A stretch of DNA of 64,000 nucleotides, taken from NCBI GenBank assembly GCA_023258975.1, contig JAHFRD010000004.1:62001-126000 (forward strand), read 5' to 3'. A program made the position numbers and the translations under genes. Origin of the DNA: Hydrogenophilales bacterium (GTDB lineage: Bacteria; Pseudomonadota; Gammaproteobacteria; Burkholderiales; Thiobacillaceae). The notes below the pieces were generated by a model. The model had not been told where the DNA came from. It saw only the letters and a list, made by a program, of their open reading frames with translations, and did not search any database. The number at the start of each line of letters is the position of its first letter. Positions within the stretch are counted from its first letter, which is position 1. Below, piece by piece: positions 2 through 16,668 of the stretch.

Positions 2-3000
2 ATGGGCGATACCTGGGGCGATTACGTGCGCATGCTCAACCAGGCCATGCTGCTGGTGTCCGAGCAGGGCAGCCCGGTGCGCGACATCCGCACCCTGATG
101 GCGACGGTTCACGACCGGTATCCCGATTGGCGCCCCGCTTCCAACCTGAGCGGCCGCCTGCTCGACAGCGCAACCGGCGCGGCCCTGGCCAACGTGGAAC
201 TCGCCGCTTACCGCGCCACCGCGCGAGGCGTGGTACTGGGCGGTTACTCGACCACCGACGCCAACGGTTATTTCACCCTGAGCGGCCTGCAACCCGGCGC
301 CTACAGCCTGACGCTGTCCGGCGGCGGGGTGTATGACATGAACCGCAACGGCGTGGACGACAGTGGCGAACTCAACGCCGCCGGCAATGCGCCGTTCGGC
401 CTGCCGAGCTTCGATGTCGGCTTCAGCGCCGACCGCGACGCCGGCAACGTCTACGTGCTCAACACCACCCGGGTGGCGCACACCGATGATTCCGCGCCGG
501 TGCTGGCTACCGCGCCGGATGGTACGCCGCACATTCTCTGGCTGCGCGACGGGCGCGCCTGGCACGCCTGGTATGACGGCAGCAACTGGGTTGACGCCGT
601 GGCGGTTTCCGGCGCCGGCGCCTCCGACCTCAGCCTGGTCGCGGCGGGCAATCTGCTCGACGCTTCCAACCCCGGCCTGATCGCCGTGTGGCAGCAGAAC
701 GGCGGCAACAGCGCCCTGGGCGGCAACGACTCCGAAATCTGGTACGCGGTCGCGCGGCCTCGGGTCGGTGGCGGCTACCAGTGGAGCGAGCCGATCCGGC
801 TCACTCATGACAACGTGTCTGATCGCGGCATTGACGTCGTGGTCGTCGGCGGTGGCCAGGTGCTGATCGTCGACAAGAAAGAGGATGTGGCGATCCAGGA
901 CGACGCCGACATCTATTACTACCTGGTCGACGTGGCGACCGGCGGCGTGGTCTGGACGGCTTCGCCGGTCGTTCTGCAACCGTCGCTCACCGTGGCCTAC
1001 AGCTACGACAAGGAATACGGCCCCTGGAGCGCGCTGGGCATGGAAGTCGGTGCCTCCATCGGCCTCACCGGCAGCGCCACGCAATCCGGCTGCGCGGCCA
1101 GCGTCAGCGTCGGCGGCAAAGCCGAACTGACCCTGGAAAGTGACAATCTCGGCATCACTCTGGAAGGCCACGGCAACCTGCAAGCCGACTGGGGTGTCGA
1201 TCTGGTCGCTCACGACTGGGACTTCCACCAGGCCACCGCCAGCATCGGCATCAGCGGCGAACTGGATTGGAAGAACGGCCTGCTGAAGATGCTCGGCGCC
1301 ATTCCGACGCCGGCCACCAAGGCCGCCGCCACCTTCATCGAATGGGCTACCGCGCTGATCAATTCCACCGGTCTGGTCGAAGCCAGCAATGGCATCAAGG
1401 GCAGCATCGGCCTCGATTTCAGCGGCCTGCAATGGACCATCGCCGAACCCTTCCCGAGTTGGGTCTGGCCGAACGTGATCGCGGAAGCGGCGGTGAACGC
1501 CAGCGTCAAGGCGTATGCCGGTGTCCAGGTCAAGGATAACGATGACTGGAAACTGGAAGTCGAGGGCGGCATCGTCGCAGCCGTGAATGTCTACCCGACC
1601 GTCGAGTTGACCAAATTGGGTGGCGAGATCGGCATCACCCTCACCCTGGACGGATGGGATCTGAGTCCCGATCCGTGGTTCCTCGGCTATGAGAAATCCA
1701 GTCTCATCACCCTGGGCGACGGCGGCATGGGCACGCCGCTCTACCTCATGTCCTGGAACCCGGGACTGCTGATCGGGAGCAACGCCAACTACAGCGACAG
1801 CGTCAGCCGCAGCCTGCTCGCGAACGTCGCCTCCGATGTCGCCAAAGACGGTTCGCCGGCTCTGGCCAGCGACTCCGGCGGCACCTACGCGGCCTGGACC
1901 CACGGCACTGGTGACATCGGTAGCGAGGTGCGGGTTTCCAGCTACACCGGCGGCGCCTGGAGCGCCCCGGTCACGATCGCCGGCAGCGTGGGCTTCAACA
2001 GCAACGTCAACACCATCACCGATGCCAACGGCAGACGCATGGCCGTCTGGGCCAACGCGGCCACCAGCGGCCTCGGCCACGACTCCGACCTGGATGCCAT
2101 CCAGGCCGCGCGCGACGCCAACGACGTGATGTATTCCCTCTACGACAGCGGCGCCGGCGTCTGGTCGACGCCCGCCCTGCTGGCGGCCACCGCTGGCCGC
2201 GACGCCAGCCTGACGCTGACCCGGGATGCTTCCGGAAACGTGGTGTTGGGCTGGATACACACCGGCGCGGACGATATTCAGCATCTGGTCAGCGCTACCT
2301 GGAATGGCACCGGCTGGACGGCTCCGGAAACCATCGCCAGCAATGCGCATCTCGGCCAACTTGAACTCGGCCTGGTCGGCAACCGCCTCACCGCGTTCTG
2401 GACCGAGGACGTCAGCGCGGCCGGCGACTCCAGCCAGACCAGCCTGCGCGGCGCCAGCTACAGCGGCGGTGTCTGGTCGGGCGCGAGCGCTTTCTCGCCG
2501 GCCCTGTTGTCCGCCTCGCTCGGCGTCACCGGCGCCGCCACGAGCCAGGGCTTCAGCCTGGCCGGTAGCGAAGTGCCGCTGCAAGGCGAATCCCTGGCCG
2601 GCATCCTGTTCGGCCCGCCGCCGGACGAATGCTTCAAGTGCAAGCCCGAGGACATCAAGAAAGTCACGGAAAGCGCGCCCAACTGCCGCCCTGGCGGTGG
2701 TACCGACGTGCAGTACGACCCCGAGAAATGCCTGGAACGCACCATCATCTACGCCCCCTGCGCCGTGCGCCCGCGCGACCCCAACGACATCCTCGGGCCG
2801 AACGGCTTCGGCGATGAAAACTGGATCACCGCCACCCAAACCCAGGCCTACACCATCCGCTTCGAAAACGCGGCGGATGCCACCGCTCCGGCGCAACAGG
2901 TGGTCATTACCCAGGTGCTGGATAGCGACCTCGACGCCCGCACCTTCCGGATCGACGATTTCGGCTGGGGTGATTTCCGCCAGGAACTGGGCGCCAATCG

Positions 3001-6000
3001 CTCCTACTTCACCGGGCGTCTCGATTTCACGGCGACCACCGGTTACTACGTGGATGTGGCGGCCAGCGTGGATGTGCCCAGCGGCACCCTCACCTGGACC
3101 ATGACCACCATCGACCCGGCCACCGGCGAAATGCCCGCCGACGCCGGCATCGGCTTCCTGCCGGTGAACGACACCGTCTACAACGCCGAACACCAGGTCG
3201 TGGTGGAAGGCACTCATCGCGGCGAAGGCTTCGTTTCCTACACCGTGCGGCCGAAGAACGGCACCGCCACCGGCGCCGTGGTGGATGCCCAGGCGACCAT
3301 CGTGTTCGATACCCAGGGTCCGATCGAAACCCCGGCCATTGCCGCGACCCTGGACGCCGGCGCGCCCAGTAGCCAGGTCAACGCCCTGCCCGCCGGCATC
3401 GCGCCGACTTCCGGCGGCGGCGCCGAATTCCTGGTGACCTGGGGTGGCGAGGACGACACGGGCGGTTCCGCCATCGCCGACTACACCATCTATGTCTCCG
3501 TGGATGGCGGCGCGTTCAGCATCTGGCAGCTCAATACCGCGTTGACCGAAGCCCTCTACAGCGGCACCGCCGGCCATTCTTACGCCTTCTACAGCACCGC
3601 GCGCGACAACGCGGGCAACGAGGAGGCGATCCCGGCCGGCGCTGACGCGGGAACCGTGATCGTCGGCGGCGTCGGCACCCTGTCCGGCATGAAGTTCGAG
3701 GACATGGATGGCGATGGTGTCAAGGACGCGGGCGAAGCCGGCCTGTCTGGCTGGACCCTCTATCTCGATGCCGACGGCAACGGTGCGCTGGACCCCGGCG
3801 AACTCAGCACCGTCACCGGCACGGATGGTTCCTACAGTTTCAACGATCTCGCCGCCGGCAACCATGTCGTGGCCGAACTGGCGCGGGCCGGCTGGATCGC
3901 CACCACCCCGGTGAGCGGCAGCCGCGCGGTCACCGTCGTGGGCGGCCAGACAACCACCGCCGACTTCGGCAATTTCCATCTCGCCCAGATCGGTGGCATC
4001 AAGTTCAACGATCTGAATGCCAACGGCATCATGGATGGCGCCGAAACGGGCCTTTCGGGCTGGACCATCAACCTCGACAGGAATGGGGACGGCAGCATCG
4101 AAACCACCGCCACCACCAACCAGTATGGTTACTACCGCTTCACCGACCTCGGCCCCGGCACCTACGTCGTGACTGAAGTATTACAAACCGGCTGGCTGCA
4201 AACCAACCCGGCCGGCGGCGGCTACACGGTCACGCCTTATTCCGGCGAGGATTCCGGCTCCAACGACTTCGGCAACGTGATGGCCGCCAGCATCAGCGGC
4301 CGCAAGTTCGAGGACGTCAACGGCAATTCCGCCTGGGACGCGGGCGTGGATCGCGCCCTGGCCGGCTGGACCATCTATCTCGACGGCAACGCCAACGGCG
4401 TGCTGGAAAGCGGCGAGCGTTTCACCGTGACCGACGCCGACGGGCTCTACCGCTTCGACAACCTGTTGCCCGGTGGCTACACCATCGCCGAAGTCATGCA
4501 AGCCGGCTGGGTGCAGACCTACCCCGCCATCGTGTCCGGCAGTGAATCGCCGCAAGTCACCCTTACCGGTTCCGAAGCGCTGCTCGCGCTTCCGGCGGAA
4601 CTGGTTCTGGAGGATGTCAGCGCCGCGCAGGTGCTTGGCAACACCCTCGCGGCCAGCCTCACCCATCTCGACGCCTACCGGGCGGATAGCCGCTTCGCCA
4701 GCCTGAACGGCGCCGGCATCAGCACCGTCGTGATCGACACCGGCATCGACCTTAACCATTCATTCTTCGGCCCGGACAGCGACGGCAACGGCGTCGCCGA
4801 CCGCATCGTCTATCAGTGGGACTTTGCCGATCACGATGGCAACGCCTCCGACCACAACGGCCACGGCTCCAACGTTTCCAGCCTGATCGCCTCCTCCGAC
4901 GCAATGGCCAGGGGCGTCGCGCCCGACGCCAGTCTGATCGTCCTCAAGGTATTCAGCGATGCCGGCGCCGGCAACTTCGGCTACCTGGAACAAGCCCTGC
5001 AATGGACGCTGGCCAATATCGCCACCTGGAACATCGGCGTCATCAACCTGTCGCTGGGCGATGGCGAGAACTGGGCGAATGCCGCCTCGATGTATGGCAT
5101 TGGTGACGAACTGGCGGCCCTGGCCGACAGCGGAGTCATCATCACCGCCGCCGCCGGCAACAGCTACTACCAGTACAACGGACAACTCGGTGTCTCCTAC
5201 CCGGCCGCCGATCCGGCGGTATTGGCGGTGGGCGCCGTCTGGAGCGGCGACTTTGGTGGCGAATACCACTACGGCAGCGGCGCCATCGACTACAGCAGCG
5301 GCACCAACCGGATCGCCGCCTTCTCGCAGCGCGACAACGACCAGCTCGACGTGTTCGCCCCCGGCACTCGCCTCCTCGGCGCCAATGCCACGGGCGGCAC
5401 GGTGACCATGTACGGCACCAGCCAGGCCTCGGCATACCTCGCCGGTATCGCCACACTGGCGCAGGATGTGGCCCAGGCCAACCTCGGCCGCAATCTCACC
5501 ACGGCCGAGTTCGCCAGCCTGCTGGCCAGTACCGGCGGCAGCATCCTGGACGGTGACGATGAGAACGACAACGTCGCCAATACCGGCCTCAGCTTCCATA
5601 CCCTCGACATGCTCGCCCTGGCCGAGGGCATCATCAGCCTCGGCACGGGTGGCGGCGGTGGCGGCGGTTCCAGCGGCACGGGCGGCAGCGGCGCCGGCTT
5701 CATCGCCGGCCCGGCCACCCACCGCGTCACCCTCGCGGCCGGCGACCATGTAAGCGGCCGGGACTTCGGCAATTTCCGGCTGGGCGAGATCGGCGGGACA
5801 TTGTTCGACGACTTCAATGCCGATGGCATCGACAACAGCGGCGACAGCGGCCTCGGCGGCTGGACGATCTATCTCGACGACAACCACAACGGCGCGCTCG
5901 ATGCCGGTGAAGCCAGCATGGCCACCGGCGGCGATGGCGCTTATCTCTTCACCGGCGTCGGCCCCGGCACGCATCGGGTCGGCATTTTCGACCCGGGTGG

Positions 6001-9000
6001 CTGGGGCTACACCACCGCCAGTTTCTTCGATGTATTCATGGAAAGCGGCGGCGTCGCCAGCCGCGATTTCGGTGCCAACCGGACTCCGACCGTTGTTGAC
6101 GACAACGCCGGCGGCGATGAGGATCAGGCCATCAACGGCAACGTGTCGGGCAACGACAGTGATCCGGACGGCCCGGCTTATACCGCCCAATTGGTGGACG
6201 ATGTCATTCACGGCAGCCTGCTCCTGAACGCCAACGGCGGCTTCACCTACGCACCCGACGCCGACTGGCATGGCGAGGATCGCTTCACTTACCGGGTGAG
6301 CGACGGCGTCAGCCTGAGCAACCTCGCCACGGTGATCCTCACCGTCAACCCGGTCAACGACGCGCCCACGGCCGACCCGGTGCTCGCCCAGAACGTTGAC
6401 GAAGGCCAGACTCTCAGCCTCACGGTGGTCGGCCATGACGTGGACGGCGACCCACTCAGCTACAGCCTGCTCAACGGCCCCGGCGCCATCGACCCGGTCA
6501 GCGGCGCCTACCGCTTCACCGCCCTCGACGGCAACGCCAGCCACACCGTCGGCATGCGGGTCGGCGACGGCCACGCAGACAGCTTCTTCGATGTCTTCTT
6601 CGACATCAGCGTCCACAACGTCGCGCCCACCCTTGGCGTAACCGGAGCCGGTAGCGCCCAGGCCGGCGTCGCCTACAGCGTGAACCTCGGCGCCAGCGAT
6701 CCGGGCCAGGACACCCTGACTGGATGGAGCATCGACTGGGGCGACGGCACCATCAGCAGCCTGATCGGCGCCGCCACCAGCGCCAGCCACACCTACGCCA
6801 CGGCCGGCAACTACAGCATCCTCGCCAGCGCGACCGACGAAGATGGCACCTACGCCGTCAGCGGCCCCACCGTCAGCGTCAGCGCGGCGGCCAACCACGC
6901 GCCCACGGCCGATACCGTCAACAACCAGAACGTTGACGAAGGCCAGACTCTCAGTCTCACGGTGGTCGGCCATGACGTGGACGGCGACCCACTCAGCTAC
7001 AGCCTGCTCAACGGCCCCGGCGCCATCGACCCGGTCAGCGGCGCCTACCGCTTCACCGCCCTCGACGGCAACGCCAGCCACACCGTTGGCGTGCGGGTCG
7101 GCGACGGCCACGCGGACAGCTTCTTCGATGTTTTCTTCGACATCAGCGTCCACAACGTCGCGCCCACCCTCGCCATCAGCGGCCCGGCGACCGGCCATGA
7201 AGGCCAGGCCTACAGCCTCGCTCTCGGCCACAGCGATCCGGGCCAGGACACCCTGAGCGGATGGAGCATCGACTGGGGCGACGGCACCCAGGGCGCGTAC
7301 CCCGGCGATGCCGGCGGCGCCAGCCACGTCTACGCGGTCGGCGGCCACTTCACCATCCACGCCACCGCCAGCGACGAGGACGGCACCTGGAACGCCAACA
7401 GCCTCGGTGTGGAGATCGCGGCCATGAGCTTCCAGGTCACCGGCTTCACGCAATTCGACAGTGGCTTCCATCTCGACTTCAACCACGCGGTGGATCTCGG
7501 CGTGCTCAACCTCTACAACGCCGCCAGCAATCCCCTGGGCGACGCCGATCTCGTCCTCACCCGCCTCGGCGCTCCCAGCCCGATCCGGGGCAGTCTGGTG
7601 CTCGATCACGACCTGCAAGGCGCCACCTTCATCAAGACCAAAGGCCTTCTCGATGCCGGCGCCTACACCCTCACCCTCGCCAGCCGCGCCGATGGTTGGA
7701 AAGACAGTGGTGGTGGACTGCTCGACGGCAACCGCGACGGCCTCGCTGGCGGCAACTACGTCGCCACCTTCGATGTCGCCGCCTCCAGCAGCGCCATCCT
7801 CGCCATCGGTGAAGTCCTGGCCGGCCCCGGCCAGTCCCTGACCGGCTACGCCCCGATCAACCAGGTGCCGCTCGACGGCCTGCCCATCACCCTCGGCAAC
7901 GCAGCGGGTGTCACCAGCCTCAGCTTCGACCTCGCCTACGACCCGGCCCTGCTCGACATCACCAGCGTCGGCTTTGCGGCCGGCGTCAGCGGCGGCTACA
8001 GTCTGGGCACTCCCGGCGTGGTTCACATCAGCCTCACCACCCCCAGCCTGGGCACCGGCGCGGTCGACATCGCCCGCCTCTACGGCGGCGTCCCGGCCAA
8101 CGCCCACACCACCAGCCACTACGGCGCCAAACAGGTGCTCGACCTCGGCAACGTCAGCGCCAGCCGCGCCCTGCGGATCGACGACGGCCTCCTGGTCAAC
8201 GCCTACCCCGGCGACGCCAGTGGCAACGCCGCCTACGACACCCTCGACATCAGCTACATGCTGCGCGTCATCGGCGGCGCCGACAGCGGCTTCGGCGCCT
8301 ACCCGCTGGTCGACTCCAGTGTCATCGGTGACATCAACCGCGACCAATCCTTCAGCTCTGCCGACCGTCTGTTGTTCGCCAGCGAACTCGACTGGCTGAC
8401 CACCGGCAACGCCGCCAAGGATCGCAAGGAAATCGTCGCCCTGCCCAGCGGTATCGGCCCCATCACCTTCACCGGCGCCGATCCGCTGGTCGATGTTCCG
8501 CGTGACCTTGACGCCACGGCCGGCGGCCTGGTCACCGTCCCGGTGCGGCTCGACATCGCCGACCAGCTCGAACAGGTGCAATTACAACTGGCCTGGGACG
8601 CCAGCCAACTCGAACTGGTCGAAGTCCGGCGCGGCAGCCTCACCGGCGGTTTTGACAACTATGTGGAAAACCGTCAGGCCGGCAGCCTCTACGTCGACAT
8701 GAGCAGCCTTACCCGGCTGCCGGGCGGCGCGGGCACCCTGCTCGAACTGGTCTACCGGGTCGCGCCCACCGTTAGCGGCGTGGTGGAAGTCAACCTGCAA
8801 TGGGCTCAACTCAACCAGACCCACCTCACCCTCAACCCCGCCCCGCAAGCGGGCGCCGACCCCACCGACGGCGCGATCCGGGTTACCCTCGCGGCCACCC
8901 CGGACAGCCCGGTGACGCCGCCCGTTCCCGCCACTCCGGAACGCCTGGCCGCACAAGCGGGCGGCGCCGGCCCGGTGATCGACTTCGCCGGCCGCTACAA

Positions 9001-9136
9001 CGGTTTCGAGTTCAAGCAAAGCGGCGAGAAAGACTGGCTGGGCGACTGGCTCACGGATGACAAGAGCAGGAGGCCCAACCTCGAAGCGCTGCGGATTCAG
9101 CCCAAGGTCGCGCCGAGATTGAGCGCGCGGTTATAA
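2..9136 (+). CDS. Giant secreted multidomain protein with nested subtilisin domain and cohesin/dockerin C-terminus (5' truncated)
   Basis: The gene runs off the left edge; 3044 residues are visible and no signal peptide is seen. Order by residue: carboxypeptidase-regulatory-like fold (about 45-140); two blocks of propeller-like repeats (about 155-330 and 600-850) around a beta-rich stretch; a CFKCK cysteine patch (about 880) leading to a DUF11/DUF7619-like region; Fn3-like; SdrD-type B repeats from about 1220; an S8 subtilisin domain (about 1510-1900) with Asp1579, His1621, Asn1720 and Ser1807 (GTSQAS); a fourth B repeat; a cadherin-like domain; two 179-residue cadherin/PKD repeats; cohesin-like (about 2600-2730), dockerin-like with two Ca-loop motifs, second cohesin-like (about 2827-2960); and a Trp-rich tail. 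The role is inferred to be a surface or extracellular protein with protease activity. The export operon just downstream is the likely partner. Confidence 0.85.
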   Translation: MGDTWGDYVRMLNQAMLLVSEQGSPVRDIRTLMATVHDRYPDWRPASNLSGRLLDSATGAALANVELAAYRATARGVVLGGYSTTDANGYFTLSGLQPGAYSLTLSGGGVYDMNRNGVDDSGELNAAGNAPFGLPSFDVGFSADRDAGNVYVLNTTRVAHTDDSAPVLATAPDGTPHILWLRDGRAWHAWYDGSNWVDAVAVSGAGASDLSLVAAGNLLDASNPGLIAVWQQNGGNSALGGNDSEIWYAVARPRVGGGYQWSEPIRLTHDNVSDRGIDVVVVGGGQVLIVDKKEDVAIQDDADIYYYLVDVATGGVVWTASPVVLQPSLTVAYSYDKEYGPWSALGMEVGASIGLTGSATQSGCAASVSVGGKAELTLESDNLGITLEGHGNLQADWGVDLVAHDWDFHQATASIGISGELDWKNGLLKMLGAIPTPATKAAATFIEWATALINSTGLVEASNGIKGSIGLDFSGLQWTIAEPFPSWVWPNVIAEAAVNASVKAYAGVQVKDNDDWKLEVEGGIVAAVNVYPTVELTKLGGEIGITLTLDGWDLSPDPWFLGYEKSSLITLGDGGMGTPLYLMSWNPGLLIGSNANYSDSVSRSLLANVASDVAKDGSPALASDSGGTYAAWTHGTGDIGSEVRVSSYTGGAWSAPVTIAGSVGFNSNVNTITDANGRRMAVWANAATSGLGHDSDLDAIQAARDANDVMYSLYDSGAGVWSTPALLAATAGRDASLTLTRDASGNVVLGWIHTGADDIQHLVSATWNGTGWTAPETIASNAHLGQLELGLVGNRLTAFWTEDVSAAGDSSQTSLRGASYSGGVWSGASAFSPALLSASLGVTGAATSQGFSLAGSEVPLQGESLAGILFGPPPDECFKCKPEDIKKVTESAPNCRPGGGTDVQYDPEKCLERTIIYAPCAVRPRDPNDILGPNGFGDENWITATQTQAYTIRFENAADATAPAQQVVITQVLDSDLDARTFRIDDFGWGDFRQELGANRSYFTGRLDFTATTGYYVDVAASVDVPSGTLTWTMTTIDPATGEMPADAGIGFLPVNDTVYNAEHQVVVEGTHRGEGFVSYTVRPKNGTATGAVVDAQATIVFDTQGPIETPAIAATLDAGAPSSQVNALPAGIAPTSGGGAEFLVTWGGEDDTGGSAIADYTIYVSVDGGAFSIWQLNTALTEALYSGTAGHSYAFYSTARDNAGNEEAIPAGADAGTVIVGGVGTLSGMKFEDMDGDGVKDAGEAGLSGWTLYLDADGNGALDPGELSTVTGTDGSYSFNDLAAGNHVVAELARAGWIATTPVSGSRAVTVVGGQTTTADFGNFHLAQIGGIKFNDLNANGIMDGAETGLSGWTINLDRNGDGSIETTATTNQYGYYRFTDLGPGTYVVTEVLQTGWLQTNPAGGGYTVTPYSGEDSGSNDFGNVMAASISGRKFEDVNGNSAWDAGVDRALAGWTIYLDGNANGVLESGERFTVTDADGLYRFDNLLPGGYTIAEVMQAGWVQTYPAIVSGSESPQVTLTGSEALLALPAELVLEDVSAAQVLGNTLAASLTHLDAYRADSRFASLNGAGISTVVIDTGIDLNHSFFGPDSDGNGVADRIVYQWDFADHDGNASDHNGHGSNVSSLIASSDAMARGVAPDASLIVLKVFSDAGAGNFGYLEQALQWTLANIATWNIGVINLSLGDGENWANAASMYGIGDELAALADSGVIITAAAGNSYYQYNGQLGVSYPAADPAVLAVGAVWSGDFGGEYHYGSGAIDYSSGTNRIAAFSQRDNDQLDVFAPGTRLLGANATGGTVTMYGTSQASAYLAGIATLAQDVAQANLGRNLTTAEFASLLASTGGSILDGDDENDNVANTGLSFHTLDMLALAEGIISLGTGGGGGGGSSGTGGSGAGFIAGPATHRVTLAAGDHVSGRDFGNFRLGEIGGTLFDDFNADGIDNSGDSGLGGWTIYLDDNHNGALDAGEASMATGGDGAYLFTGVGPGTHRVGIFDPGGWGYTTASFFDVFMESGGVASRDFGANRTPTVVDDNAGGDEDQAINGNVSGNDSDPDGPAYTAQLVDDVIHGSLLLNANGGFTYAPDADWHGEDRFTYRVSDGVSLSNLATVILTVNPVNDAPTADPVLAQNVDEGQTLSLTVVGHDVDGDPLSYSLLNGPGAIDPVSGAYRFTALDGNASHTVGMRVGDGHADSFFDVFFDISVHNVAPTLGVTGAGSAQAGVAYSVNLGASDPGQDTLTGWSIDWGDGTISSLIGAATSASHTYATAGNYSILASATDEDGTYAVSGPTVSVSAAANHAPTADTVNNQNVDEGQTLSLTVVGHDVDGDPLSYSLLNGPGAIDPVSGAYRFTALDGNASHTVGVRVGDGHADSFFDVFFDISVHNVAPTLAISGPATGHEGQAYSLALGHSDPGQDTLSGWSIDWGDGTQGAYPGDAGGASHVYAVGGHFTIHATASDEDGTWNANSLGVEIAAMSFQVTGFTQFDSGFHLDFNHAVDLGVLNLYNAASNPLGDADLVLTRLGAPSPIRGSLVLDHDLQGATFIKTKGLLDAGAYTLTLASRADGWKDSGGGLLDGNRDGLAGGNYVATFDVAASSSAILAIGEVLAGPGQSLTGYAPINQVPLDGLPITLGNAAGVTSLSFDLAYDPALLDITSVGFAAGVSGGYSLGTPGVVHISLTTPSLGTGAVDIARLYGGVPANAHTTSHYGAKQVLDLGNVSASRALRIDDGLLVNAYPGDASGNAAYDTLDISYMLRVIGGADSGFGAYPLVDSSVIGDINRDQSFSSADRLLFASELDWLTTGNAAKDRKEIVALPSGIGPITFTGADPLVDVPRDLDATAGGLVTVPVRLDIADQLEQVQLQLAWDASQLELVEVRRGSLTGGFDNYVENRQAGSLYVDMSSLTRLPGGAGTLLELVYRVAPTVSGVVEVNLQWAQLNQTHLTLNPAPQAGADPTDGAIRVTLAATPDSPVTPPVPATPERLAAQAGGAGPVIDFAGRYNGFEFKQSGEKDWLGDWLTDDKSRRPNLEALRIQPKVAPRLSARL
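6360..7433 (+). repeat. 537-bp in-frame tandem duplication (cadherin-like plus PKD unit)
   Basis: Two units (6360-6896 and 6897-7433) share the same register over 537 bp (179 residues). The first about 270 bp of each unit are nearly identical at DNA level (NVDEGQTLSLTVVGHDVDGD onward). The second halves keep the PKD core GWSIDWGDGT but differ more. This looks like a recent internal duplication or gene conversion within the giant gene. Confidence 0.9.
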
Positions 9137-9565: not shown

Positions 9566-9592
9566 GGGACGGTGCGACCGTCCCTTTTTTTT
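9566..9592 (+). terminator. Rho-independent terminator after DUF3467 gene
   Basis: GGGACGGT, a GCG loop and ACCGTCCC are followed by eight T residues. It begins 23 bp after the stop codon and separates the giant gene/DUF3467 from the downstream operon. Confidence 0.9.
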
Positions 9593-9709
9593 GCGCGGCG
9601 CCAATGTGGCCCGCGATGCCACACCCGCGAGCGTTCCCTGGGCGTATCGCATTCCCTCCGGCCAATCGGCGCGCTACTCTCCTCCTTCATCGGTTTTCAG
9701 ACGACAGAT

Positions 9710-11563
9710 ATGCAGTCTCGCAACGACGCCGTCGCTTCCTCTCCCGATACCCCGCCGCCCGTCGCGCCTGCGGATTTCTGGCAGGCGCTGGCGCAAGCCC
9801 GCAACGCCGAGCAACTTTGCCAGGCCTGGCTGCCCATCCTGTGCGGCATGCTCCAGCGGGCGCGGGGTGGCTTGCTGTTGCTGCGGGACGGCGATGGCAG
9901 TTTCGCGCCGGCCGCGTTGTGGCCGGAGGCGGCGGATCTGTCCTATCTGCGCGGCGTGGCCGAGGAATCGTTGAATACCCGCCAGGGTGTGATACAGCGG
10001 GACGATGACGGCCAGACCCGCTTTGCCTATCCCCTGCTGAACGGCGACGAGCTGTTCGGGGTGGTGATCCTGGATTTGCTCGCGGCGGACGAGATGGCGC
10101 TCACCCATGCCCGTCGCCTGCTGCACTGGGGCGCGGGCTGGCTGATCGACCTGTCCAACCGGCACGCGTTGCTGGAACAGGAGGCGCGTCTGGAGCGTTC
10201 GGCCTACCTATTTGATCTGGCGTTGGCGGCGCTGTCCGAGTCCGATTTCGGCAAGGCCAGCCTGGCCGTGGTGAACCGCCTGGCGCAGCGCTTTCATTGC
10301 CATCAGGTGTTGTTCGGCCTGGAGAAGGGCAAGACGGTGCGGGTGGAAACGGTGTCCCATTCCGCCTGGTTCGAGGAAAAGGCCAATCTGGTCAACCTCG
10401 CGGCGCAGGCGATGAACGAGGCTTTCGACCAGCGTTCCCGCATCGTCGTGCCGGAGCCGGAATCCGGCGCTTCCCTGATTACCGCGGCCTGCCGCCGTTA
10501 CCTGGAAGACAGCGGTGGCCATGCGCTGTGCGCCCTGCCACTGGAAGCCGGCAACCGGGTGGTGGGGGTGTGGCTGCTGGAGCGGGATGAGCCATTCTCG
10601 GACGAGGAACGGGACGTGCTCGATGCCCTGACCCTGACCGTCGGCCCGATTTTGGAACTCAAGTTGAACGCCGAGGAGTCGTTGTTCAGCCATGCGCGTC
10701 GTTCCTGGAACCACGGCCTGCGCAAGTTCACCGACACCTCGCGCCCGGGGTACAAGTTGCTGGCCATCGTCATCGCCGCCTTGCTCGCCGGCCTCGCCAT
10801 TTATGAAACCGATTACCGCGTGGCTTCGCGAGCGGTGGTGGAGGGTGCCACGCAGCGCGTCGCGGTGGCGCCGTTCCAGGGTTACCTCCAGAGCGCGCCG
10901 AAGCGGGCGGGCGACGTGGTGCGCGCTGGCGAAGTGCTGGCGACCCTGGAAGACAAGGACTTGCGCCTGGAGAGAGTGCGCTGGGAAGCGGAGCTGGAAG
11001 TTTCCCTGCGCAAGGAACTGGAGGCGATGGCCAAGGGCGAACGGGTGGAATTGCGCCTGGCTACCGCCCAGGCCAACCAGGCGCGCGCCCAGCTCGATCT
11101 GGCCCAGGAAAAACTGGCGCGCGTGCGGGTGCTGGCGCCCTTCGACGGCGTGGTGGTGCGCGGCGACCTGTCGCAGCAACTCGGCTCGCCGGTGGAGCAG
11201 GGCAAGGTGCTGTTCGAACTGGCGCCGCTGGAAGCCTGGCGGGTGATCCTGAAGGTGGACGAGCGTGATATCGCCGATGTGCGCGCCGGCCAGTCGGGCG
11301 AACTCATGCTCACCAGCCTGCCCGGCCAGTCCTTCCCGTTCAAGGTGAAAAAGGTGACGCCGGTGGCCACCGCCGAGGAGGGCCGCAACTATTTCCGGGT
11401 CGAAGCCGGATTGACCCTGAAACAGGGCGCCAGCCTGCCCAAGCTGCGCCCCAACATGGAAGGTGTGGGCAAGGTGGAGGCCGGCGACCAGAGCCTGTTG
11501 TGGATATGGACGCACCGGCTGAGTGACTGGCTGCGCCTGACCCTGTGGCGCTGGATGCCATGA
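9710..11563 (+). CDS. GAF-domain / HlyD membrane-fusion hybrid protein
   Basis: The ATG at 9710 gives 617 residues; an upstream in-frame start would overlap the terminator, so it was not used. The first about 330 residues are cytosolic and resemble two GAF sensory folds. One transmembrane helix follows (about 345-367, LLAIVIAALLAGLAIYE), then an HlyD-type adaptor with barrel-sandwich halves (VAVAPFQGYLQSAPKRAGDV; APFDGVVVRGDL) and a short coiled hairpin. The protein therefore appears to join cytoplasmic sensing to a periplasmic adaptor. It is first in an operon with the M50-HlyD, SecA-like and HlyD genes. The ligand of the GAF folds is unknown. Confidence 0.8.
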   Translation: MQSRNDAVASSPDTPPPVAPADFWQALAQARNAEQLCQAWLPILCGMLQRARGGLLLLRDGDGSFAPAALWPEAADLSYLRGVAEESLNTRQGVIQRDDDGQTRFAYPLLNGDELFGVVILDLLAADEMALTHARRLLHWGAGWLIDLSNRHALLEQEARLERSAYLFDLALAALSESDFGKASLAVVNRLAQRFHCHQVLFGLEKGKTVRVETVSHSAWFEEKANLVNLAAQAMNEAFDQRSRIVVPEPESGASLITAACRRYLEDSGGHALCALPLEAGNRVVGVWLLERDEPFSDEERDVLDALTLTVGPILELKLNAEESLFSHARRSWNHGLRKFTDTSRPGYKLLAIVIAALLAGLAIYETDYRVASRAVVEGATQRVAVAPFQGYLQSAPKRAGDVVRAGEVLATLEDKDLRLERVRWEAELEVSLRKELEAMAKGERVELRLATAQANQARAQLDLAQEKLARVRVLAPFDGVVVRGDLSQQLGSPVEQGKVLFELAPLEAWRVILKVDERDIADVRAGQSGELMLTSLPGQSFPFKVKKVTPVATAEEGRNYFRVEAGLTLKQGASLPKLRPNMEGVGKVEAGDQSLLWIWTHRLSDWLRLTLWRWMP

Positions 11564-11588
11564 GGTTGCCGCCAATGAGCAGGTTGCC

Positions 11589-13736
11589 ATGAGCGAGGCG
11601 CTGTTTTCGACCAACTGGTATCGCGTCGCCGATCTCAGGCCACGCTTGCGCGGCCATATCCGCATCCATCGCCATGCCTACCGGGGCGAGATCTGGTACG
11701 TCGTGGAAGACCGGGTCGCGGGCAAGTATCACCGTTTCAATCCGGCCTCCTACAAGGTAATCAGCCTGATGGACGGCCAGCGCGACATGAATCAGGTCTG
11801 GGCGCGCCTGACCGCCGAGTTGGGGGAAGACACACCGGATCAGGAAGAGGTGATCCGCCTGCTCGGGCAGCTTCATGGCGCCGACCTGATCCAGTGCGAC
11901 GTCACGCCGGATGTGGCGGAATTGTTCGAGCGGCGCGGCAAGCAGGAACGCAAGAAGCTGCTGAACCGCTATCTCAACCCGATGTCGCTGCGCTTTCCGC
12001 TGCTCGATCCGGACAGGCTCCTCGACTGGGCCAACCGCTGGCCGCATCCATACAAAGGCGGCTGGGGCATGTTGATCTGGCTGGCGGTGGTGCTGCCGGC
12101 CGCGTTCCTCGCCCCCATGCACTGGCCCGACCTCACCGAGAACTTCTCGGAACAATTGCTGGCGATGGATAACCTGCTGCTGATGGCCGTGGTGTTTCCC
12201 CTGCTCAAGGGTTTGCATGAAATGGGGCATGGCCTCGCGGCCAAGTCGCGCGGTGGTGAAGTGCACGAGATGGGAATCATGCTGCTGGTGTTCTTCCCCA
12301 TTCCCTATGTGGAAGCGTCCAGTTCCTCCGCTTTCGTGAAGAAGACCGAGCGCATGCTGGTGGGCGCGGCCGGCATGCTCACCGAGCTGTTCGTCGCCGC
12401 CCTGGCGTTCTATCTCTGGGTGATGCTGGAGCCGGGTCTGGCGCGTTCACTGGCTTACAACACCCTGATTCTGGCCAGCGTCTCCACCGTCCTGTTCAAC
12501 GGCAACCCCTTGCTGCGCTACGACGGCTACTACATCTTCGCGGACTGGGTCGAGATTCCCAATCTGGGCAGCCGCTCCACCCAATACTGGCGCTATCTGG
12601 CCGAGCATCATCTGTTCGCCGTGCCCGAGAGCGAGCCGCCGCCGGCCACAGCGGGCGAACGCCGCTGGTTCCTCGCCTACGCGCCGCTGGCGTTCGCCTA
12701 TCGCATGTCCGTGCTGTTCGGCATCGCCCTGTTCGTGGCGCAGCAATACTTCATCATCGGCGTGTTGCTGGCGCTCTGGGGGATGTTCGCCAGCATCGGT
12801 ATTCCCCTGTTCAAGATGGCCCGCGCGCTGTTCACGGAACCGCGCTTCGCCGCGCGCGGCATGCGTATCCGCAAGGTGCTGGGAGGCGCCGCCCTGGGGC
12901 TCTATCTGTTGCTGTTCGTGTTGCCCATGCCCTACCACACCCACGCCGAGGGGGTGCTGCGCTTGCCGGAACAGGCAATCCTGCGCGCCGAAGCGGCCGG
13001 GTTCGTCTCGCGGATACTGGCTCGCCCCGGAGCTCCTCTGCATCCCGGTACCGCCGTGCTGGAGAGTAATGATCCGGATCTCGCGGCCGACCTGGGCGTG
13101 CAACTTGCCCGGTTGGGAGAGGTACGCGCCCGTTATGACGCCGCCTGGGGCGTGAAGCCGGCCGAAGCCGCGCGCCTGGAAGAGGCAATGCGGCGCGAAC
13201 AGGCCGCCGTCGATCGCCTGCGCGAGCGCATGGCCCGCCTCACCCTGCATGCCGGCGCTTCCGGCAGGTTGTTGCTGGAACATCCCGACGATTTGCCTGG
13301 GCGTTTCCTGCAACAGGGCGAGGTCGTCGGCTATGTGGTGGGCAGCTATGTTCCCGTGGTGCGCGTGGTGGTGCCGCAGGAAGACGTCGACCAGATCCGC
13401 CTGGAGACTCGCGACGTGGTGGTGAAGCTGCCGCAGAACCTCGCCGCCACCTGGCCCGCGCGCCTGCTGCGCGAAGTCCCCGCCGCCGGCCACGAACTGC
13501 CCAGTGCCGCCCTTGGCCAGAGCGGCGGCGGCGACATCGTGCTCGACCCTGGCGACAAGGAAGGCACCAAGACCCTGCAATCGGTCTTCGAGTTCGAGCT
13601 CGCCCTGGAACAGGCGGCGCCCGCGCGTTTTCTCGGCAGCCGCGTCCATGTGCGCTTCGAACACCCCGCCACCCCCCTCGGCACACGCGCCTGGCGTGGC
13701 GTGCGCCGGCTGTTCCTGTCGCGCTTCCATGTTTGA
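11589..13736 (+). CDS. PqqD-like / M50 site-2 metallopeptidase / HlyD fusion
   Basis: 715 residues. Residues about 5-105 resemble the PqqD-like peptide-binding fold (YRGEIWYVVEDRVAGKYHRF). A polytopic membrane region carries the zinc motif HEMGH (His210, Glu211, His214) and the third ligand region NGNPLLRYDGYY (Asp312), both expected of an intact M50 site-2 protease. Later transmembrane helices lead into an HlyD-like periplasmic part (about 455-690). The gene lies 25 bp after the GAF-HlyD gene. In known families PqqD-like domains bind leader peptides, so I infer that this protein recognises, and may cut, an exported substrate. That substrate is not proven. Confidence 0.8.
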   Translation: MSEALFSTNWYRVADLRPRLRGHIRIHRHAYRGEIWYVVEDRVAGKYHRFNPASYKVISLMDGQRDMNQVWARLTAELGEDTPDQEEVIRLLGQLHGADLIQCDVTPDVAELFERRGKQERKKLLNRYLNPMSLRFPLLDPDRLLDWANRWPHPYKGGWGMLIWLAVVLPAAFLAPMHWPDLTENFSEQLLAMDNLLLMAVVFPLLKGLHEMGHGLAAKSRGGEVHEMGIMLLVFFPIPYVEASSSSAFVKKTERMLVGAAGMLTELFVAALAFYLWVMLEPGLARSLAYNTLILASVSTVLFNGNPLLRYDGYYIFADWVEIPNLGSRSTQYWRYLAEHHLFAVPESEPPPATAGERRWFLAYAPLAFAYRMSVLFGIALFVAQQYFIIGVLLALWGMFASIGIPLFKMARALFTEPRFAARGMRIRKVLGGAALGLYLLLFVLPMPYHTHAEGVLRLPEQAILRAEAAGFVSRILARPGAPLHPGTAVLESNDPDLAADLGVQLARLGEVRARYDAAWGVKPAEAARLEEAMRREQAAVDRLRERMARLTLHAGASGRLLLEHPDDLPGRFLQQGEVVGYVVGSYVPVVRVVVPQEDVDQIRLETRDVVVKLPQNLAATWPARLLREVPAAGHELPSAALGQSGGGDIVLDPGDKEGTKTLQSVFEFELALEQAAPARFLGSRVHVRFEHPATPLGTRAWRGVRRLFLSRFHV

Positions 13737-13795
13737 TCGTGCGATGTCGGCGGCGGTGGTCTTCCTTCTTTTGCAAGAAGGGGGCGTCTTTTAGC

Positions 13796-15766
13796 ATGTC
13801 CTCCCTCCTTTCCCACGCCGAACTCTCCCAGGGCATCTATCCCGAGCGGGCCGATCCCAATGAGAGCGCCTTCGACCGCTGGACGCGTGGCGCGCTGGGC
13901 GGCGCGCTGCTGCGCTTGCGGCCGTTTCGGGCGCGGCTGGCGGCGTTGGCGAAACAGGCCGGGGCGGAGGCCGAGGCCGTGGCGCGACTGGAGGACGCCG
14001 AGTTGGCTACCCAGACGCGGGTTCAATCGCGTCAGGCCATGCTGGGGGGCAACCTCGCGCCGGCGCTGGCGCGGGTGCGCGAAGCCGCGCTGCGCAGCCT
14101 CGACAAGCGCCCTTTCGACAGCCAGTTGATGGGCGCGGCGGCGCTGATGGCCGGCAAGCTCGCGGAAATGCAGACCGGCGAGGGCAAGACCCTCACCGCC
14201 GCGCTGGCCGCCTGCGTGGCCGCCGCCTCCGGCGCGCCGGTGCATGTGGTGACGGTGAATGACTACCTGGCCGAGCGTGATGCGCGGGAAATGGCGCCGT
14301 TGTTCGAATTTCTCGGCCTCTCGGTGGGCACCATCGTCACCGGCATGAGCCTGGATGCGCGCCGCGCCGCCTATGCCCGCGACATCACCTACTGCACCAA
14401 CAAGGAACTGGTGTTCGATTATCTGAAGGATCGCGTCGCCGCCGGTGGCCGCGCCAGCCGCGCGCAAGTCCTGGCGCGCTCCCTGCTGGGCGGCGAGAAA
14501 CGGGCCGGGATGCTGTTGCGTGGACTGCATTTCGCCATCGTCGACGAGGCCGACAGCATCATGATCGACGAGGCGCGCACGCCCCTGATCCTGGCCGAGA
14601 AGGGGCCCACCAGCGGGGATCCGAAGATGTACAGGCAGGCACTGGCCCTGGCGCGCGAACTCGCGCTGGGCGAGCATTACGAGATGTCGCCGGCGCGGCG
14701 CGAACTGCATCTGACCGACGCCGGGCGCGCCGTGCTCTATCGGCGCGCCCGAGAGCTGGGCGGCACCTGGCTCTCGGGCAAGGCGCGCGAGCAACTGGTG
14801 TCGCAGGCGCTACGCGCGTTGCTCCTGTTCCATCGCGACCAGCACTACCTGGTATCCAGGGAGCGCAAGGTACAGATCATCGACGAGTACACCGGCCGCG
14901 TGCTCGAAGGGCGCACCTGGGAGCAGGGCTTGCACCAGATCATCGAAGCCAAGGAAAACTGCATGCTTTCCGAGCACAACCGCACCCTGGCGCGCATCAC
15001 CTACCAACGTTTCTTCCGCCGCTATCTGCGCTTGTCCGGCATGACCGGCACGGCGAAGGAGGTGGCCGGCGAATTGCACGCCGTGTATGGCCTGGAAGTG
15101 GTCGCCATTCCTCCCAACCGGCCCTGTGTCCGCATCCGCGAAGTGGATCGCTGCTGCCCGGGCGAAGCCGCCAAGTGGCGGGCCGTGGCGGAGGAGGCCG
15201 CGCAGCTTCGGGAACGCAACATGCCGGTGTTGATCGGCACCCGCTCCCTGGAGGCCTCGGAACAGTTGTCCGCCATGCTGGAACGGATGGCATTGCCGCA
15301 TCGCGTCCTCAACGCCCGCCAGGATGCCGAGGAGGCCGAGATCGTCGCGCGGGCCGGGCAGCCCGGCACGATCACGGTCGCCACCAACATGGCCGGGCGC
15401 GGCACCGATATTTGTCTCGGCGATGGCGTGGCCGCAGCCGGTGGCCTGCATGTCATCCTCACCGAATTCCACGACTCGCCGCGCGTGGATCGCCAGTTGA
15501 TCGGCCGCTGCGCGCGCCAGGGCGACCCCGGCCGCGCGCTCGCCATCGTTGCCTTCGATGACGCCCTGTTCCGTGAACACGGTGGCTGGCTTTATCGTTT
15601 GCTCACCCGATTCCCGAGCCATGCCCTGCCGCCCCTACCGCTCGCCTTGTTGCGTCAGCGTTGCCAGCACGCAGCCGAACGTATCCACGGCCGCGAACGC
15701 CGCGATACCCTGAAACAGGATCGCGACCTCGATACCCTGCTTGCCTTTGCCGGAAACCAGATATGA
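13796..15766 (+). CDS. Shortened SecA-like translocase ATPase
   Basis: Start chosen at ATG 13796 after a GAAGGGGG ribosome site, giving 656 residues (an in-frame TTG at 13733 is less likely). It has the SecA motor: Walker A QTGEGKT with Lys131, DEAD box at 250-253 followed by SIMIDEARTPL, a preprotein-crosslinking region, and NBD2 motifs (GMTGTA, TNMAGRGTDI, RQLIGRCARQGDPG). After NBD2 only about 100 residues remain, so the helical wing, most of the scaffold and the C-terminal zinc finger of housekeeping SecA (about 900 residues) are missing. It is therefore an accessory SecA-like ATPase, probably powering export by this operon. Confidence 0.88.
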   Translation: MSSLLSHAELSQGIYPERADPNESAFDRWTRGALGGALLRLRPFRARLAALAKQAGAEAEAVARLEDAELATQTRVQSRQAMLGGNLAPALARVREAALRSLDKRPFDSQLMGAAALMAGKLAEMQTGEGKTLTAALAACVAAASGAPVHVVTVNDYLAERDAREMAPLFEFLGLSVGTIVTGMSLDARRAAYARDITYCTNKELVFDYLKDRVAAGGRASRAQVLARSLLGGEKRAGMLLRGLHFAIVDEADSIMIDEARTPLILAEKGPTSGDPKMYRQALALARELALGEHYEMSPARRELHLTDAGRAVLYRRARELGGTWLSGKAREQLVSQALRALLLFHRDQHYLVSRERKVQIIDEYTGRVLEGRTWEQGLHQIIEAKENCMLSEHNRTLARITYQRFFRRYLRLSGMTGTAKEVAGELHAVYGLEVVAIPPNRPCVRIREVDRCCPGEAAKWRAVAEEAAQLRERNMPVLIGTRSLEASEQLSAMLERMALPHRVLNARQDAEEAEIVARAGQPGTITVATNMAGRGTDICLGDGVAAAGGLHVILTEFHDSPRVDRQLIGRCARQGDPGRALAIVAFDDALFREHGGWLYRLLTRFPSHALPPLPLALLRQRCQHAAERIHGRERRDTLKQDRDLDTLLAFAGNQI

Positions 15767-16668
15767 AAGAGCCCTTGCCTGCCCGCTCGTTCGCCCCCGT
15801 GGCCGAATCCAACCGCGTATTCCCCCTGTTCAGGAACCAGGGAAGCATGGCGTCGCGCTGGTTGAGCGCCTGCGCGGGGATGACGGCGGTGTTCGCGGTG
15901 GCGGCCTCCCATGCGGGCGATCGCGCCCATGCCTGCCTGATCGAGCCCTACCAGAAGATCGAACTGCGCAGTCCGGTGGAGGCGCTGATCACGCAAATCC
16001 GGGTGGATCGCGGAGCCACGGTGAAGAAGGGACAGGTGTTGGTGGAAATGGATACCGGCGTCGAGGAAGCCGCGCTGGCTGCCGCCAAATACAAGGCGGT
16101 GATGGAAGGGCAGATCAAGTCCGCAGAAACCCGGGTCGGTTACTCTCGCGGCAAACTGAACCGGAAGGAAGAACTCAACCGGATGAACTTCATCTCCGCT
16201 CAGGAACGCGACGATGCCTACAGTGAAATGCGCCTGGCCGAGGCCGAACTGCTCGACGCCAAGGACAACCGTGAGCTCGCCGCGCTGGAGTACAAACGCC
16301 TGCTCGCCCAGGTGGAACAGCGCCGCCTCACCAGCCCATTCAACGGCGTGGTCACCGAGCGCCTGCAACACCCCGGCGAACTCGCGCAAACCGGCGAGGG
16401 CGCGCGCGCCATCATGAAGCTCGCGCAAACCCATCCGTTGCGGGTTGAAGTCATATTGCCGGTGGCGCTCTATGGGAGCATCCACAACGGTACCCACGCC
16501 CGCGTGGAGGCCGAGCCGCCGCTCCAGGGCAGTTATCAGGCCACGGTGCGAATCGTCGACAAAGTGGTGGATTCCGCCAGCGGCACCTTCGGCGTCCGCC
16601 TCGAACTGCCCAATCCCAGGGGGGACATTCCGGCCGGGGTGAAATGCCGCGTTACGTTCGCCAGGTAA
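15763..16668 (+). CDS. HlyD-family periplasmic adaptor
   Basis: ATG 15763 overlaps the SecA-like stop (ATGA), giving 301 residues. An alternative ATG at 15847 has a GGGAAG site and leads straight into a signal-peptide-like segment (WLSACAGMTAVFAVAASHA). The mature part has the two lipoyl-like halves (ELRSPVEALITQIRVDRGAT; RRLTSPFNGVVTERLQHPGE), a coiled hairpin between them and a beta-barrel end. It is last in the export-like operon. No outer-membrane TolC-like partner is visible in the window. Confidence 0.82.
   Translation: MKEPLPARSFAPVAESNRVFPLFRNQGSMASRWLSACAGMTAVFAVAASHAGDRAHACLIEPYQKIELRSPVEALITQIRVDRGATVKKGQVLVEMDTGVEEAALAAAKYKAVMEGQIKSAETRVGYSRGKLNRKEELNRMNFISAQERDDAYSEMRLAEAELLDAKDNRELAALEYKRLLAQVEQRRLTSPFNGVVTERLQHPGELAQTGEGARAIMKLAQTHPLRVEVILPVALYGSIHNGTHARVEAEPPLQGSYQATVRIVDKVVDSASGTFGVRLELPNPRGDIPAGVKCRVTFAR

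Follow-up and report, generated by a model that had tools for sequence, protein, structure and literature searches.

Isopeptide-type stalk domains that carry a large domain in a loop between their bond-forming residues are exemplified by Spy0125, in which a thioester domain sits in a CnaB-like domain, and RrgA, in which a von Willebrand A domain sits in a CnaA-like domain (available text of PMC12617251); the insertion of adhesion domains into such folds is already known. In the window, the whole 64,000-nucleotide stretch of Hydrogenophilales DNA analysed here, a split SdrD_B repeat has the same build, with 396 residues inserted between the columns of Glu1497 and Asn1924 (residue numbers follow the open reading frame of the window). 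The inserts of Spy0125 and RrgA, as that source gives them, are adhesion or isopeptide domains, whereas here the insert is a putative protease and the SdrD_B bond is only predicted. The engineered SpyRing, in which an enzyme is cyclised between SpyTag and SpyCatcher and which its makers, in the available text of PMC4748275, called ‘not known in nature’, is also similar: an enzyme lies between two parts of a CnaB-type domain under an isopeptide lock (PMC4748275), a lock which in the window is a prediction. In the SpyRing, tag and catcher are separate partners, the tag comes first, and the bond is Lys-Asp (Lys-Asp from the available text of PMC6539128), whereas the window protein runs from a catcher-like part through the enzyme to a tag-like part, with a predicted Lys-Asn bond.

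SdrD_B is one of the families for which isopeptide bonds are predicted, Lys159, Glu218, and Asn248 being its example, and a substantial fraction of the SdrD_B bonds are predicted with low confidence (available text of PMC12617251). The B domains of SdrD, SdrG, and UafA (PF17210) share the predicted fold of the intact repeat described below, but those aligned here have Val at the lysine column, and a UafA isopeptide bond was accordingly dropped as a parallel; staphylococcal B domains depend on three calcium ions, and the available text of PMC6232131 describes no protease in them. With the S8 subtilisins (PF00082), the insert has in common the complete predicted fold and the catalytic residues; it differs in the lack of a recognised propeptide domain, in a DGDDENDN motif, and in being nested in another domain. 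The opposite nesting, in which a subtilase hosts a PA domain, has been described (available text of PMC5177683). In the literature surveyed (titles and abstract openings, subscription papers being mostly outside), no description was found of an SdrD_B or CnaB domain with a protease as its insert. The new element here is a predicted isopeptide triad split around a protease, with Lys and Glu ahead of it and Asn behind.

A subtilase within the third SdrD_B repeat

Our own SdrD_B model of 100 positions, derived from 47 full-length repeats including three of the window itself, covers repeats 1, 2, and 4 over positions 1–100 and the N-part of repeat 3 over positions 1–81 only. This N-part belongs to SdrD_B, scoring 31.3 bits against PF17210 (cut-off 29.7). 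The completion of repeat 3, THRVTLAAGDHVSGRDFGNF, is found 396 residues further on, in a C-piece that starts at residue 1906 with THRVTLAAG. Joining the two parts adds 13.5 bits and extends the coverage to positions 1–100, whereas none of 250 shuffled decoys gains more than 6.1 bits. The central claim of the original prediction, a subtilase inside one B repeat, is thus confirmed at the sequence level by the break at position 81, the completion to position 100, and the comparison with decoys. What it called the missing half after the insert proved to be the last 19 of the 100 positions, that is, the last fifth with the last strands; its insert of about 390 residues at 4530–5707 was re-measured as 396 residues at 4529–5716. 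There is no sign of a recent foreign insertion, given a GC fraction of 0.667 in the insert against 0.67 in the window's part of the gene, and a conserved build.

Table 1. Features of the split repeat, its surroundings, and the downstream genes (window coordinates)
Feature	Position	Strand	Basis
Giant gene, 3' part	2..9136	+	open frame joined from L002 and the window; Pfam domains
SdrD_B repeat 1, intact, triad Lys-Glu-Asn	3674..3976	+	own repeat model 1–100; AlphaFold pLDDT 98
SdrD_B repeat 2, intact, triad Lys-Glu-Asn	3983..4276	+	own repeat model 1–100
SdrD_B repeat 3, N-part, strands 1–6, aa 1429–1509	4286..4528	+	own repeat model 1–81; strands in AlphaFold model
Lys1435, predicted isopeptide lysine	4304..4306	+	column common to other repeats; family prediction PMC12617251
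Glu1497, predicted catalytic glutamate of isopeptide site	4490..4492	+	same columns; PMC12617251
Insert, 396 residues, aa 1510–1905	4529..5716	+	separates the two parts of repeat 3
First linker, pLDDT <50	4532..4627	+	model residues 84–115
Subtilase S8 fold (predicted)	4616..5683	+	model residues 112–467 in best structural match; PF00082
Catalytic Asp1579	4736..4738	+	sequence and alignments
Catalytic His1621	4862..4864	+	sequence and alignments
Oxyanion Asn1720	5159..5161	+	sequence and alignments
Catalytic Ser1807	5420..5422	+	sequence and alignments
DGDDENDN motif of this S8 subfamily	5549..5572	+	74/76 rows; invariant in A1
Second linker, glycine-rich, pLDDT <50	5648..5701	+	model residues 456–473
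SdrD_B repeat 3, C-piece, last strands	5717..5776	+	joined score; model strands 480–484 and 495–499
Asn1924, predicted isopeptide asparagine	5771..5773	+	same columns; PMC12617251
SdrD_B repeat 4, intact, triad lost (Leu-Ile-Ala)	5783..6076	+	own repeat model 1–100
GAF-HlyD, PqqD-M50, SecA-like, HlyD	9572..16668	+	Pfam (M50 just under cut-off); partly conserved beside composite genes

The insert matches PF00082 at an E-value of 1e-29, and the full catalytic set, Asp1579, His1621, Asn1720, and Ser1807, stands at the very positions originally given; the same Asp, His, Asn, and Ser are found in all 74 aligned S8 domains. By predicted fold and by these residues, the insert is an S8 domain with putative protease activity. 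No propeptide domain was recognised by Pfam in the composite of N-part, insert, and C-piece at E-values up to 1. The DGDDENDN motif, 3' of the catalytic Ser codon, occurs in nested and non-nested S8 domains alike (74 of the 76 compared) as a signature of the subfamily, and is perhaps a metal site.

We modelled the composite with AlphaFold from 500 residues and 23 homologues (alignment A1), yielding a mean pLDDT of 82.7 and a pTM of 0.71, with values below 50 at the two predicted flexible linkers. The protease part of the model adopts a complete subtilisin fold, with a Z-score of 38.3 to TKSP over 286 residues (2.3 Å) and of 37.2 to Tk-subtilisin. The folding of Tk-subtilisin is aided by calcium. 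As the fold search with the whole composite was filled by subtilisins and silent on the B parts, an intact repeat was folded separately, using repeat 1 and 32 others (alignment A2). The resulting model shows strands at residues 2–10, 29–32, 46–48, 54–60, 63–69, 75–79, 84–89, 94–96, and 99–103, and its best solved matches are the B domains of UafA and SdrD, with Z-scores of 12.7–13.6 for the top four. In the split repeat, the predicted strands run as in the intact repeat up to residues 76–80 and then resume past the protease at 480–484 and 495–499. The structure prediction thus gives the flanking parts the strand pattern of an intact repeat, as the original prediction would have it. Since the two strand patterns agree, the protease is placed in the short turn that connects strands 6 and 7, and the strand pattern and model confidence lead us to infer that the N-part and the C-piece share one common sandwich. 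Acidic residues that may serve calcium binding are kept in alignments A1 and A2.

Taken together, we consider it fairly probable that the subtilase occupies the strand 6–7 turn of an SdrD_B (CnaB-like) stalk domain and hangs from it as a tethered side-branch protease, with a possible covalent ring and extracellular cutting. In this model, the chain past the protease would supply the missing last strands, such that the stalk domain still folds, and the protease would form a side loop on two flexible linkers. The B domain would transmit the load along the stalk and spare the enzyme, which may be active outside the cell and cut the matrix or neighbouring proteins near the stalk. Placing an enzyme in the side loop of a strong domain would be a natural, repeatable means of presenting a protease on a stalk. 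The original suggestion that activity is tied to repeat folding gains nothing from the models, in which both linkers have low confidence, the second is glycine-rich, and no rigid coupling is visible. A rival reading, raised in the original prediction, is self-processing: once exported, the subtilase would cut its own giant chain at the linkers or in adjacent modules and thereby mature it or release fragments. An enzyme with its catalytic set complete, placed between flexible linkers of the same chain and with no recognised propeptide domain, would suit such a role; yet the linkers vary in length and sequence among the homologues, no common cleavage motif is visible in A1, and a split held by its own sandwich would resist release. 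We regard self-processing as unlikely.

Conservation and origin of the nested arrangement

A scan of genome contigs gave 78 loci; its seeds were query peptides including those of the B repeats, and the share of nested rows is therefore not a frequency. The filter asked for a near full-length S8 domain, encoded in a single forward frame and bearing D[TS]G and GTS motifs; 76 of the 93 loci L004–L096 passed, 30 with an upstream B part and 46 without. The others were dropped owing to a match on the other strand, a split over frames, a cut at the edge, the lack of an S8 domain, or a missing motif (L005, L007, L008, L010, L011, L012, L014, L015, L016, L017, L018, L048, L051, L059, L069, L093, and L094). 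Of the 30 rows in which an N-part precedes the S8 domain, 29 have a completing C-piece, each outscoring 250 shuffled decoys; the sole failure is L037, with a divergent C-piece. These 30 rows include the window's own locus (L004) and a copy of L020 (L006). Leaving out both, the C-piece is present in 27 of the 28 other loci, comprising 11/12 from Pseudomonadota, 12/12 from Cyanobacteriota, and 4/4 from Planctomycetota (phylum per sequence record). Thus, the nested arrangement put forward by the original prediction is conserved in three phyla.

As a control, we joined the N-part of the window to the post-S8 stretches of all rows, one of the 46 non-nested rows yielding no score. The end of the model was reached in 29 of the 30 nested rows, with gains of 5.2–16.4 bits, against none of the 45 non-nested ones, with gains of 3.1–9.2 bits; 28 nested gains exceeded 9.2 bits, those of L037 and L058 being the exceptions. 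The view that there is no nesting, the stretch after the protease resembling a repeat end by chance, may draw on the shortness of the C-piece (about 20 residues), on the one row of 30 that fails, and on these two low gains. It was rejected on the shuffled decoys, outscored in 29 of the 30 rows, and on the non-nested rows, none of which reach the model end, and the agreement of the predicted strands in split and intact repeats also speaks against it, making a chance resemblance extremely improbable.

Full-length matches were found in 3 of the 22 other genomes of the same genus searched, one of them with two copies. The homologue sought in the original prediction, a relative of the giant in which this repeat is unbroken, was not found among these; all same-genus giants found carry the insert, and in two further genomes with the downstream gene cluster (G076 and G080) the contig ends before that part. 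The composite is rare, in that among 369 genomes of the class, with at most four candidates scored per genome, a match over both parts was found in the window's own genome only.

Several loci vary the arrangement. The N-part and the S8 domain lie about 200 residues apart in five cyanobacterial loci (L039, L056, L041, L047, and L050). In the two of these searched with Pfam, a Calx-beta domain fills the gap (L039:6190-8103 and L056:5992-7908), so that the split repeat there holds two inserted domains. On the Terrarubrum flagellatum plasmid NZ_CP091853.1 (L097:12001-13904), the composite spans the whole query in three pieces, and the annotation splits the gene into two overlapping coding sequences near locus positions 13332–13383, pointing to a frameshift inside the protease or an error of sequencing there.

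Between phyla, the N-parts of split repeats score a mean of 73 bits against each other and 55 bits against intact repeats. In 12 of the 12 proteins with both kinds of repeat, the top split match from another phylum outscores every intact repeat of that protein; on the other hand, the cross-phylum split match is itself outscored in several rows by an intact repeat from a different protein. No intact repeat passed our own filter in the available flanking sequence of any of the 12 cyanobacterial loci. LEPR-XLL was detected in 15 of the 24 genomes scanned and in none of the nine cyanobacterial ones. The likeness of N-parts across phyla, together with these negative results in Cyanobacteriota, is read as a composite unit moving between protein types.

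A single clade of nested rows was rejected by an AU test (p 0.0016), in which 27 rows were set against 22, with 22 far rows and three near-copies left out and with the tree already inspected beforehand. Nesting may thus reflect several insertions at one site, or one insertion followed by later un-nesting. This rejection suggests that the S8 domain has moved in and out of this context, and the 46 non-nested rows of the same S8 subfamily likewise accord with a tolerated insertion, in which the loop took up an S8 module by chance, nesting has no function, and the enzyme would do equally well beside the repeat. Such an origin is at odds with the same junction in three phyla and with split N-parts that resemble each other across phyla more than they do intact repeats, suggesting a unit kept as such; we hold it to be distinctly unlikely. 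A LEPR-like motif, as defined by our own pattern, precedes the protease in 18 of the 46 non-nested rows, often near the protein start (L042, L044, L046, L055, L061, L062, L064, L065, L071, L073, and others), and this S8 subfamily and the motif seem linked.

The predicted isopeptide triad around the protease

In the split repeat, the columns of the CnaB-type bond are filled, Lys1435 and Glu1497 preceding the protease and Asn1924 following it; the corresponding Lys/Glu/Asn spacings are 61/32 in repeat 1 and 58/33 in repeat 2. Seventeen of the 28 split repeats have Lys-Glu-Asn, and 11 did not score with a full triad, which is why we treat nesting as independent of the bond (in this tabulation, the tails of L037 and L058 were read out of register). 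In counts that ignore descent, Lys and Glu are both present in 17 split repeats, Lys alone in 0, Glu alone in 3, and neither in 8 (Fisher p 5e-5), and the p-values are 0.016 for Lys with Asn/Asp and 0.55 for Glu with Asn/Asp. Counted in the same way, again regardless of descent, the 43 intact repeats give 13/0/12/18 for Lys-Glu (p 1.6e-4) and 12/1/3/27 for Lys-Asn/Asp (p 3.5e-7). Covariation of Lys and Glu on the tree was set aside, the three supported independent pairs being too few; Glu changed the same way in 2.3 of them on average and never the opposite way. This pattern of co-retention fits a bond site.

A Lys1435–Asn1924 bond would link the first and last strands of the repeat and close a covalent ring around the protease, which would then stay attached even after a nick in a linker. 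Such a natural enzyme ring, in which an isopeptide bond cyclises the protease and a linker cut does not release it from the stalk, is a tentative proposal to which we give somewhat less than even weight. If true, it would amount to a natural SpyRing, and giant surface proteins would have a conserved means of presenting proteases. Since the triad flanks the protease, the covalent enzyme ring is testable in a single purified protein, and a demonstrated bond would yield Catcher/Tag-like pairs that are new and of Gram-negative origin, and would supply a case of enzyme cyclisation in nature.

The giant gene and its neighbours

Joining L002 to the window gives the whole host gene, an open frame of 7,978 codons that starts 14.8 kb before the window and stops at window positions 9134–9136; counted from the first ATG, the protein has about 7,961 residues. 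According to Pfam, it contains four PPC, three Big_5, eight CARDB, and four SdrD_B stretches, one S8 domain, Big_9, PKD, and a weak match to cohesin. LEPR-XLL (NF012209; 26 bits against a cut-off of 17, frame residues 62–81) lies at its N-terminus, which is outside the window. The giant is probably exported. The genes downstream include a SecA-like one encoding a short SecA paralogue of 677 residues, a housekeeping-type SecA of 938 residues being encoded elsewhere. A GAF-HlyD gene follows the composite gene in 10 of the 20 loci compared (L102, L103, L104, L019, L020, L025, L027, L092, L037, and L097), of which L102 and L019 belong to one genome and L104 and L020 to another. In L105 it follows the C-terminus of a giant at a contig end, and L106 ends inside PqqD-M50; the SecA-like gene follows in L102–L106 and is cut by the edge in L037. 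No gene of the cluster was seen at L026, L030, and L036 or next to the second copy in L107, nor in L021–L024, whose sequence stops early or shortly past the gene. The cluster is a candidate exporter, perhaps a hitherto undescribed one, of LEPR-XLL giants.

Near the C-terminus of the giant (window 7880–8065 and 8210–8389), two stretches rich in Asp and Asn, which resemble dockerin repeats by eye, come after the weak cohesin match (E 2.8e-8). Long minus-strand open frames overlap the region, including one of 1,273 residues at 4760–8581, and are presumed shadow frames. Across the genome, the S8 domain of the giant is the sole PF00082 match found, while SdrD_B has 25 matches, 21 of them in two other open frames. 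One frame of the same genome, 2,888 residues long (G000:C22:148729-156027), carries 17 SdrD_B repeats with an unbroken profile match and several identical scores.
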